A program made the position numbers and the translations under genes. 64,000 bases of DNA from Clostridia bacterium. Its GTDB lineage: Bacteria > Bacillota > Clostridia > Christensenellales > CAG-314. Below, piece by piece: positions 1,488 to 30,575 of this stretch. Location: NCBI GenBank assembly GCA_028703495.1, contig JAQVMT010000003.1:1-64000 (forward strand). The letters run 5' to 3'. Position 1 is the first letter of the stretch, and each line of letters begins with the position of its first letter. The notes beneath the pieces were generated by a model. The model ran no database searches and had not been told where the DNA came from. It saw nothing but the letters and a program-made list of their open reading frames with translations.

Positions 1488-1747
1488 CTTATAGCAGGAA
1501 GTGAGCACAAACTTTCGCAAAGGGCTTGACTGTGGGCAAATAGGGTTAGGTCATTTGCTTCGATGATTGACCGAGGTTATTAATTTTGTAGTATGGTTGT
1601 ATAACGGAAACGAGTATCCGGTATACTATTTGCGCCAAACGAGGCAAATGCGGAGCGATAAGAAATCACAAAAAGGAAATGCGGTAGGGCAGGTGTTCGA
1701 TATTACTGTGAAAACTAAAAAAAAACGCAAAAAAAGCGAAAAAACAG
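1488..1747. other. Intergenic stretch before the tRNA operon, no supported gene
   Basis: The only long frame here (1567-1764) starts at TTG without a ribosome site and ends in a lysine-rich low-complexity run caused by A-tracts. I see no other coding or RNA signal up to the tRNA promoter. Confidence 0.6.
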
Positions 1748-16816: not shown

Positions 16817-16845
16817 TTGACAACTGAAATTCTATAGGTTATAAT
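16817..16845 (+). promoter_or_regulatory. Consensus promoter of the second XRE/ImmA pair
   Basis: TTGACA (16817-16822), 17-bp spacer, TATAAT (16840-16845). A TTAGC-N6-GCTAA palindrome at 16858-16873, at the expected transcription start, is a likely operator for the 17018 regulator. The rest of 16874-17004 shows no gene. Confidence 0.83.
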
Positions 16846-18168: not shown

Positions 18169-18174
18169 AAATTA

Positions 18175-18204
18175 TCAGCGGGATTCCGCCCGTTGATTTT
18201 TTTT
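18175..18204 (+). terminator. Terminator after the XRE/ImmA pair
   Basis: TCAGCGGG pairs with CCCGTTGA (one G-T pair) around ATTCCG, followed by eight T residues. Confidence 0.8.
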
Positions 18205-18267
18205 AAGGTTGGTGTTAACAAAGTTGCTAACAGGTTAACAAGAAAAATTTATGATAGGAGGTGCTTC

Positions 18268-18444
18268 ATGATGCAGTGTGAATATACGGGTAAGCAATGC
18301 GACGCGGAACATTGCGAATTTGATTATAAAGACTGGCAACTGTTGAAAATAATCAAAAAGGCAGTTGAGAAGGGGCATAATGCAGAAGTAAAGAAACAAA
18401 ACGGGCAATATGTAGTCTATGAAGTAAAAAAACAGAAGATGTAA
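18268..18444 (+). CDS. Small cysteine-containing protein
   Basis: A 58-aa ORF starting at ATG 18268, eight bases after a strong AGGAGGTG. The track start at 18193 lies inside the preceding terminator and is unlikely. Three cysteines and a histidine (CEYTGKQCDAEHC) near the start could bind a metal. The C-terminal half is basic. No family recognised; probably an early prophage gene. Confidence 0.65.
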   Translation: MMQCEYTGKQCDAEHCEFDYKDWQLLKIIKKAVEKGHNAEVKKQNGQYVVYEVKKQKM

Positions 18445-18478
18445 CAGCCATCGATAAATTGGTATCGGTGAAGGACCA

Positions 18479-18529
18479 AGCGGGGTCGGTAATCTTGCGA
18501 AGAGCATGGATTACTGACCTCGCTTTTTT
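18479..18529 (+). terminator. Strong terminator after the small ORF
   Basis: AGCGGGGTCGGTAATC (18479-18494) pairs with GATTACTGACCTCGCT (18509-18524), followed by six T residues. Confidence 0.85.
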
Positions 18530-18567
18530 AGTAAAGAAATAAAAAATAATATATCTCGCCCTGATAT

Positions 18568-18716
18568 GCATTAAAGGGCAAACGGATATGACATACCACC
18601 AGAGCATTTCGCTTCGGGAAAGTATGTGTGTACCCTTCCTTTAATGCGACCTTTTTGGGCAGTTGTAGGCTTGGGTACTCGAAAAAGTATTCAGGTCTTT
18701 TTTCATATCCGTTTGC
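18568..18716 (+). ncRNA. Interleaved RNA fold with a terminator, upstream of the sigma-like gene
   Basis: Helix A is GCATTAAAGG (18568-18577) with CCTTTAATGC (18638-18647). Helix B is a perfect 14-bp pairing, GCAAACGGATATGA (18578-18591) with TCATATCCGTTTGC (18703-18716). Because B starts inside A and ends outside it, the two make a pseudoknot or compete. Helix C (ACATAC/GTATGT) lies inside A. GACCT...AGGTC followed by six T (18648-18703) forms a terminator starting directly after A and ending at B. This looks like a conditional attenuator. Family unknown to me. Confidence 0.5.
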
Positions 18717-18751
18717 TTTTAGTGCTTCTTCGGCGGGGAAGGAGCAAAAAA

Positions 18752-19144
18752 ATGAAAATCACTTATGAATTTGCAGACGGAACAATCAGCACGGTTGAGG
18801 TCGATGAGGAACTCGGAGCATATATTACGGCTTCGAGGCGCGAAGAGAAAAACTGCGACAGGAAGAACAGATACCACTGTTATTCACTCGACCATATCGA
18901 TTACGAGGGGTTGGAGTATGCGGAAAAGCAAAGTACGGAGGACAAGCTCGAAGACAAAACATCGGAGGAGCGGGTGCAGGCTTTCTTGGCGACTTTATCT
19001 GACGCGCAAAGGCGCAGAGCCGAAATGCTTCTGGACGGTATGTCCGCACGTGAAATTGCTTTGAGCGAAGGCGTCGGACATACGGCTATAAACGACTCCA
19101 TAAAACTCATCAGAAAAAAATTTAAAACTTTTTTCGGAAAATGA
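18752..19144 (+). CDS. Sigma-70 region-4-like regulator
   Basis: A 130-aa protein whose C-terminal 70 residues form a helix-turn-helix like sigma region 4 (MSAREIALSEGVGHTAINDS), preceded by an acidic and charged N-terminal part. The ATG at 18752 has GAAGGAG at proper spacing; the longer track frame from 18626 runs through the RNA fold and lacks a site. Its stop codon overlaps a TGACTGTCCAAAA promoter-like element that occurs again at 62153. It is a candidate for the factor that uses that element. Confidence 0.75.
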   Translation: MKITYEFADGTISTVEVDEELGAYITASRREEKNCDRKNRYHCYSLDHIDYEGLEYAEKQSTEDKLEDKTSEERVQAFLATLSDAQRRRAEMLLDGMSAREIALSEGVGHTAINDSIKLIRKKFKTFFGK

Positions 19145-25808: not shown

Positions 25809-26090
25809 ATGCGAGAAAAGTTAATAGAAAGCAAACTTGTAAAGGGAATTAAAAGTCGTGGAGGACTGTGTTTGAAGTTCGTATCGCCATCTTTTAACGG
25901 GGTCCCAGACAGGCTGGTGTTAATGCCAAACGGAAGGATGGCATTCGTGGAAACAAAGGCAACGGGCAAAACGCTACGTGCTTTACAGGAAAGACGAAAA
26001 AAACAATTAGAGATACTTGGTTTTAAGGTGTACTGCCTTAACGACGAAAACAGTGTGGAGGAGGTTATAAATGAAATACAATCCGTATGA
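25809..26090 (+). CDS. VRR-NUC domain nuclease
   Basis: A 93-aa single-domain nuclease. GVPDRLVLMPNG followed by FVETKA near residues 35-55 is the VRR-NUC catalytic signature (D...ExK). It overlaps the helicase gene by 20 bp. In phages these stand-alone domains act with a SNF2-type helicase on branched DNA. Confidence 0.88.
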   Translation: MREKLIESKLVKGIKSRGGLCLKFVSPSFNGVPDRLVLMPNGRMAFVETKATGKTLRALQERRKKQLEILGFKVYCLNDENSVEEVINEIQSV

Positions 26091-30436: not shown

Positions 30437-30575
30437 AAAAAACAATCCCATCGTAAACGACAGGATTGCATGGTTCAATATAAACCCCATCGTTTCAGCC
30501 TTTAGCACCTTGCCGTTTGGTAGGTTGCTGTGTGGTCGTTGGGGCTGTCCCTCGCACACTCTCTATAGGTTGAAA
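30437..30575 (-). promoter_or_regulatory. SAM riboswitch (SAM-I clan) with attenuator
   Basis: Minus-strand aptamer 30575-30493: P1 TTTCAACCT/AGGCTGAAA, then AGAG, GAGGGACAGCCCC, a kink-turn-like CGA, P2 TGTG/CACA, the invariant GCAACC, a short P3 and GGTGCTAA. These are the conserved elements of S-box RNAs. A hairpin CAATCC...GGATTG followed by six U (30468-30437) is the terminator. AACGATGGGGTT, which begins in the 3' strand of P1, can instead pair with AATCCTGTCGTT of the terminator. SAM binding should therefore turn the gene off. Confidence 0.87.

Follow-up and report, generated by a model that had tools for sequence, protein, structure and literature searches.

The question raised by this locus is what an arrangement of interlocking helices around an intrinsic terminator does in front of a small phage gene. 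Within the window, which is the whole 64,000-nucleotide stretch of the Clostridia bacterium contig JAQVMT010000003.1 that was analysed, a perfect 10-bp helix A (18568-18577 with A' 18638-18647) and a perfect 14-bp helix B (18578-18591 with B' 18703-18716) are found; these and the other elements of the leader are read on the + strand. The initial annotation had described both helices, together with a third helix inside the first and a terminator hairpin with six T between A' and B', and each of these features is present. The third helix, formed by ACATAC (18591-18596) and GTATGT (18622-18627), is the stem of a variable apical hairpin (18591-18627). The terminator Z:Z' (18668-18703) has the arms GGCTTGGGTACT (18668-18679) and AGTATTCAGGTC (18686-18697), the loop CGAAAA and a U tract of six T (18698-18703), and it is also recovered by a pattern scan. 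The inverted repeat B is the sole perfect one of at least 14 bp with an inter-arm spacing of 20-150 nt in the 64 kb, where the expected count is a mean of 0.05 (60 Markov sequences), and the leader folds at -59.9 kcal/mol, compared with -38.3 +/- 3.8 kcal/mol for dinucleotide shuffles (z -5.8).

The helices interlock in the order A-B-A'-B', which had been read as a pseudoknot. Both helices are real, but it is more likely that they are parts of two alternative folds than of one standing pseudoknot, because B continues outward into a longer nested helix of about 23 bp, of which it makes up the inner half, between 18568-18591 and 18703-18725. In this longer helix the 5' arm of A pairs alternatively with 18716-18725, an extension that is present in some members of the family only. 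It had further been proposed that the formation of B competes with A and strands the terminator. The competition between helices is borne out, but B' is transcribed only after the U tract, so that B is without influence on termination at 18703 and would instead govern translation after read-through. The competitor of the terminator is the helix Y:Z, between strand Y (GTACCC, 18630-18635) and the core of the terminator arm Z (GGGTAC, 18673-18678), which would be the antiterminator.

The strands X, Y, Z, Z' and X', together with the SD region, thus appear to make two mutually exclusive helix sets, and this assignment is supported by coevolution. In the OFF set, strand X (18578-18591, the 5' arm of B) pairs with Y, along with A:A' and the helix PX (5' arm GCCC 18558-18561, with GGGC 18657-18660), the terminator Z:Z' is formed, and X' (18703-18725, comprising B' and its extension to 18725) pairs with the SD. 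In the window, X':SD is replaced by a separate SD hairpin (18724-18745), with the arms GCTTCTTC (18724-18731) and GAAGGAGC (18738-18745), which shuts the ribosome site in the OFF fold. In the ON set, X pairs with X', this helix enclosing Y:Z, and the SD is free. In most relatives X' overlaps the anti-SD, and the segment that contains X' also pairs with the SD. The sequence also holds the hairpin P0 (ATATC/GATAT, 18551-18567). A leader-peptide attenuator, suggested by ATG CAT TAA at 18567 in the window, was rejected, as L240 is without a start codon at this place and others read through, so that the peptide is not shared.

The gene behind the leader (18752-19144, +) encodes a small protein of 130 residues that matches phrog_11138 at 1.8e-28 and the RNA polymerase sigma factor phrog_1740 at 1.2e-6, in agreement with its earlier description as sigma-like. 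It is followed by a gene for a 68-aa protein, DUF2800, a phage ssDNA-binding protein (PF10991), DNA polymerase, primase/helicase and SNF2 helicase and, farther downstream, by terminase, portal, Clp protease and capsid. Upstream of the leader are an HTH gene, an IrrE-like gene, a terminator-like site (18174-18197), a promoter-like site, a small gene and a gut-2 RNA. The candidate early promoter CTAACA-17-TATGAT (18227-18255, +) is weak, with 9 of 12 matches, and another promoter-like site, at 16817-16845, has 12 of 12; the number of promoter-like sites in the region upstream of the leader equals chance. Two GTTAACAA repeats, at 18214-18221 and 18234-18241, lie by the candidate promoter and could be repressor sites. 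The phage group Ca. Heliusviridae, which is present in more than 90% of people studied, has nine shared genes (DUF2800, DUF2815, DNA polymerase I, VRR-NUC, SNF2 helicase, terminase, portal, Clp protease and major capsid; PMC9226167). This gene set is found in the window prophage, where eight of the nine genes are identified and the VRR-NUC-like ORF (25809-26090) is assigned by eye only. DUF2815 is here presumed to correspond to PF10991. The small early proteins encoded 5' of the leader (18268-18444 in the window; also in L129, L137 and L160) have the C-terminal pattern RGxNxEV+R..xG.xxVxEIxK in common and are possibly one common early protein. A SAM riboswitch (RF00162, 54.6 bits) is found in the phage region at 30484-30571 (-), on the strand that does not carry the early operon.

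Relatives of the leader were found through the proteins behind it. A nucleotide search with the window leader gave no full homologue in 151 related genomes and phage records, an exact 19-base pattern search of viral contigs gave no match, and the sigma-like protein alone, used as query, reached only distant relatives. The DUF2800 protein as query gave seven viral contigs at 80-84% protein identity, plus more distant ones, and in six of these a leader of the same architecture stands before the sigma-like gene. An alignment of ten sigma-like proteins as query then led to 80 viral and 73 genome loci. Nineteen leaders, from regions 5' of sigma-like genes, were aligned first. The covariance model was made from the OFF helices only, X:X' never being part of it, and it gave additional members at 36-154 bits, including some in loci already collected. 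Counted with strict filters, which may make the numbers too low, 12 of 396 genomes are positive in an order-level scan with this model (E <= 0.01) and 11 of 399 in a phylum-wide draw (E <= 0.001), the genome of the window being included both times. Two named phage records that are deposited under Ca. Heliusvirales also match, PV036413.1 at 165.6 bits and PV036425.1 at 98.1 bits. The final alignment has 42 members (41 distinct), from viral contigs and Bacillota genomes; the alignments A4 and A5, and the segments excised from them, are fitted to the OFF model.

Most matches of the covariance model terminate at a start codon. Behind the leader lie, for the most part, genes for small proteins like sigma-70 region 4, which belong to more than one family (phrog_11138, phrog_13787); the exceptions include L289, with a Rha-type regulator, and L275, with an HTH gene. 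The leader has immunity genes on one side and replication genes on the other. In the deposited annotation of PV036413.1 (L299, 5930-6624), small CDSs are placed within the leader, and the sigma-like gene starts about 100 nt too early, within the RNA element. In L290 (1711-3213) the N-terminus of the sigma-like protein is in frame with an ORF resembling deoxyxylulose-phosphate synthase (IIAIIGDGSMSGGEALEGL), a fusion that may reflect a deletion, a prophage junction or an assembly error. In L281 (646-1503, -) the leader and the sigma-like start are in frame with a primase-like ORF, which looks like an internal prophage deletion.

The two helix sets were compared by a swap test, in which the pairing of each member's segment with its own partner is set against its pairing with the partners of other members. 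In the first 17 sequences every one of the seven helices passes, at z -3.0 to -6.7, and six control pairings fail; the 22 members outside model building again give a pass for all seven (z -3.7 to -7.5). The held-out values are -7.5 for X:X', -7.2 for Z:Z', -6.6 for X:Y, -5.3 for X':SD, -4.1 for Y:Z, -3.8 for A:A' and -3.7 for PX (-3.0 in the first set), with eight control pairings within |z| 2.4; shared ancestry inflates such coevolution measures, and the controls, which share this ancestry, reduce the problem without removing it and include a few that reach |z| 2.2-2.5. Pair counts were compared with shuffles and with slid partners. For X:X' there are 72 double-change cells in all 42 members, against 28 in shuffles and 17-38 with slid partners, which is above every slid version, and in A4, where 20 of the 21 rows are held out, there are 31 against 15. 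X:X', P0 and Y:Z together have 42 double-change cells in the first set (17 shuffled), and the OFF helices have 161 (60 shuffled). X':SD, taken alone, has 86% of its cells paired, and four of its seven pairs show double changes. Since X:X' and X':SD both coevolve, compensatory change maintains the pairing of X' with either partner, yet the two helices are unable to form together. RNAalifold, run on the 19-sequence alignment, recovered P0 only, as a single consensus does not accommodate two competing folds and changes in length; for this reason, partner-swap tests and counts of named structures were used. The covariation among homologues that the initial annotation had named as a check of its proposal is therefore found, being strong for B and weaker for A in the swap tests and pair counts, and the coevolution of exclusive helix sets agrees with its suggestion of a logic like that of a riboswitch or attenuator.

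The predicted energies, which are model values that leave kinetics, proteins and pseudoknots aside, describe the two folds as follows. When the RNA is taken only as far as the U tract, the fold of lowest energy in the window consists of A:A', the hairpin within A:A' and the terminator, and the partition function favours X:Y in 18 of 19 members and has Z:Z' paired in 16 of 19. Terminator pairing is weak in L216, L160 and L227, and L216 is without a clear terminator. In the full-length RNA the ON fold (X:X') is preferred by the window, L153, L156 and L160, L230 is split, and the remaining members stay mostly OFF, with the SD paired with X'. For the window (18540-18780) the ON fold is at -75.8 and the OFF fold at -74.4 kcal/mol, about 1.4 kcal/mol apart. 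The SD bases 18739-18743 are 74-93% unpaired when X:X' is forced, and the unpaired probability of 18738-18743 is 0.00 when A:A' is forced (OFF).

Taken together, it is likely that the element is a cis-acting leader RNA that acts as a bistable switch on termination and on the translation start of the same gene, and the leader is probably an attenuator for both steps together. During transcription, the 5' domain (PX, A:A', X:Y) would fold first and the terminator Z:Z' would then form, OFF being the default state predicted from the energies. In transcripts that slip through, the SD would be covered by X' or, in the window and its nearest relatives, by the separate SD hairpin. When the 5' domain is opened, or the other fold is stabilised, Y would take Z and the polymerase would pass the terminator; after read-through, X would take X' and the SD would be exposed, so that both blocks would be released by one event. 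The regulated step may be this opening or stabilising of the 5' domain, by a metabolite or a protein, and expression of the sigma-like gene, and of the replication genes downstream of it, would start only when the phage exits from quiescence. Should the switch operate in this way, a structured RNA would control the first lytic regulator gene of these temperate phages at termination and translation at once. The family, with 42 members and two exclusive folds, provides a clear model that is open to standard assays, and it invites the question which signal is sensed by the phage.

The window, L123 and L127 have the SD shut by a hairpin of its own, the arms of which are 18724-18731 and 18738-18745 in the window, and only two bases of this hairpin are shared with the ON helix through the extension of X'. 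The P0 loop (18555-18560, CUCGCC) is complementary to the loop of the SD hairpin (18732-18737, GGCGGG), and L127 has a compensatory pair of loops, CUCGUC and GACGGG. It is possible that in this subclade the ON fold opens the SD hairpin by pairing of the P0 loop with the hairpin loop. The coupling in the window subclade would thus depend on the longer ON helix and on this loop-loop pairing, which is based on only three sequences and is, for the window itself, the least secure part of the scheme.

What sets the choice between the folds can be read in several ways. A sharper form of the bistable switch, with the same anatomy, is a ligand riboswitch, in which the conserved 5' domain binds a small molecule that decides the fold; this reading is tentative. 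It agrees with the distribution of conservation, as 22 of the 81 positions of the sensor (5') domain are conserved at >=85%, compared with 3 of 41 terminator positions and none of the 24 in the apical loop, and GGAU (18584-18587, within strand X) is invariant in 42 of 42 members. Such conservation would be as expected for a sensor, but it is no proof of an aptamer, and a protein-binding site would show conservation too. One pathway can be served by different riboswitch classes, and several unrelated leader classes do serve this same gene; a metabolic gene is, however, absent behind the leader. Exclusive structures that control termination or translation, as riboswitches have, are predicted here in silico. 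The leader could even be a new riboswitch class of temperate gut phages, in which the GGAU domain reads a metabolite or second messenger and sets transcription and translation of the sigma-like gene, although this is rather doubtful; if true, the lysogeny decision of a very common human-gut phage group depends in part on an RNA sensor. Control by an RNA-binding protein is also conceivable, again tentatively: such a protein, of phage or host origin and perhaps identical with the sigma-like product, would keep the leader in one of the folds. The position of the leader between an immunity module (HTH and IrrE-like genes) and the replication genes is in line with such control, as are the downstream genes, which are nearly always sigma-like though their sequence families differ. 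One protein would, however, hardly recognise the leaders of several unrelated structures that the same gene family has, and the genes behind the leader in L289 and L275 are other ones.

Three further readings are less probable. RNase III processing frees the SD in the lambda N leader, and the helix X:X' with its extension, which is about 23 bp long in the window and adjoins the ribosome site, could be an RNase III site that frees the SD after read-through in a constitutive leader, the terminator and SD hairpin only damping expression; this is unlikely, since it leaves the coevolution of Y:Z and X:Y unexplained. Phage antitermination leaders, such as the put RNA of HK022, are, like the present leader, structured RNAs that lie early in a phage operon, before terminators. 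The tandem terminators of the window leader (18480-18529 and 18668-18703), with gut-2 between these and the promoter candidate, might suggest such a processive element, by which a modified polymerase ignores downstream terminators, but here the terminator arm Z itself coevolves with strand Y of the leader, which points to local competition and makes a put-like element very improbable. An inverted repeat that is perfect over 14 bp could also act at the DNA level only, as a protein-binding or recombination site. This reading has hardly any probability, as pairing of the arms is maintained by compensatory changes and by G-U pairs, and coevolution in the same strand sense is seen for six other helices.

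The initial annotation knew of no family that matches, and this is upheld by Rfam 15, which at the gathering score has no match in the window element or in 20 loci with members; a closer look at the window and L176 gave no sensible match with E <= 10. A literature search found no description of the leader family, nor of DUF2800 RNA or gut-2 in such phages. The leader family is new as a sequence family, and its kind is known, namely that of attenuators and riboswitch-like leaders. With known riboswitches and attenuators that act on termination or the SD it shares a conserved 5' domain, exclusive downstream helices and the terminator and anti-SD outputs; it differs from these in that a single chain of strands connects both outputs, and in being phage-borne.

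DUF2800 RNA (RF02960) resembles the leader in position, both standing 5' of the DUF2800 gene module. Like the leader, DUF2800 RNA precedes a sigma-like gene and this module (L045), is of similar size, and has a closing helix with its 3' arm after a U run and an adjoining SD hairpin; unlike the leader, it differs in conserved sequence and helices, and there is no mutual covariance-model match. The leader does not reach the gathering score of DUF2800 RNA (60.2 bits), and the best match in its own genome, at 15.7 bits, lies elsewhere. In the DUF2800 RNAs of L045, L155, L161, L172, L236, L241, L265 and L272, an upstream copy of the SD side is seen, for example GGAATGGAGG or GAAACGGAG. This copy could capture the anti-SD (CCTCCATTCC or CTCCGTTTC), in a similar anti-SD exchange, which has been recognised by eye and for which a shuffle test is mixed (mean z -1.8).

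The gut-2 RNA (RF02990; 18446-18493, +) lies directly upstream of the leader in the window and overlaps the terminator at 18480-18529. Its gathering score is reached only at 18446-18493 and not within 18568-18716, and none of the 20 scanned loci with family members has it above the cut-off. It is a separate element from the leader, although both are in the same leader transcript if transcription starts from 18227-18255. Like the leader, gut-2 overlaps a terminator arm; unlike it, gut-2 is a 48-nt element catalogued as an sRNA gene. In the order, gut-2 is matched in two of 297 genomes (18446-18529 in the window; 1501-1548 (-) and following in L298). In both matches an intrinsic terminator includes, within its 5' arm, the 3' arm of the second gut-2 hairpin, and a further leader with a terminator stands behind it; judged from these sequences, gut-2 looks like an attenuator and not like a free sRNA gene. 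The leader family also suggests that DUF2800 RNA and gut-2, which are catalogued but unexplained, are worth re-reading as the same kind of leader control.

Several leader classes of unlike sequence, distinguished by simple patterns, precede the sigma-like gene, and most of these shut the SD in a hairpin. At least three further classes with a terminator and an SD hairpin, which have no Rfam match where scanned, stand before the same gene family: one in L125, L133, L152 and L171 ('CCGCCAGAACGC'), another in L138, L163, L164 and L235 ('CCGAGcaa' and 'ATCGAGCCCTGG'), and another in L148, L170 and L249 ('GAGCCTGACAAGCGGCAC').
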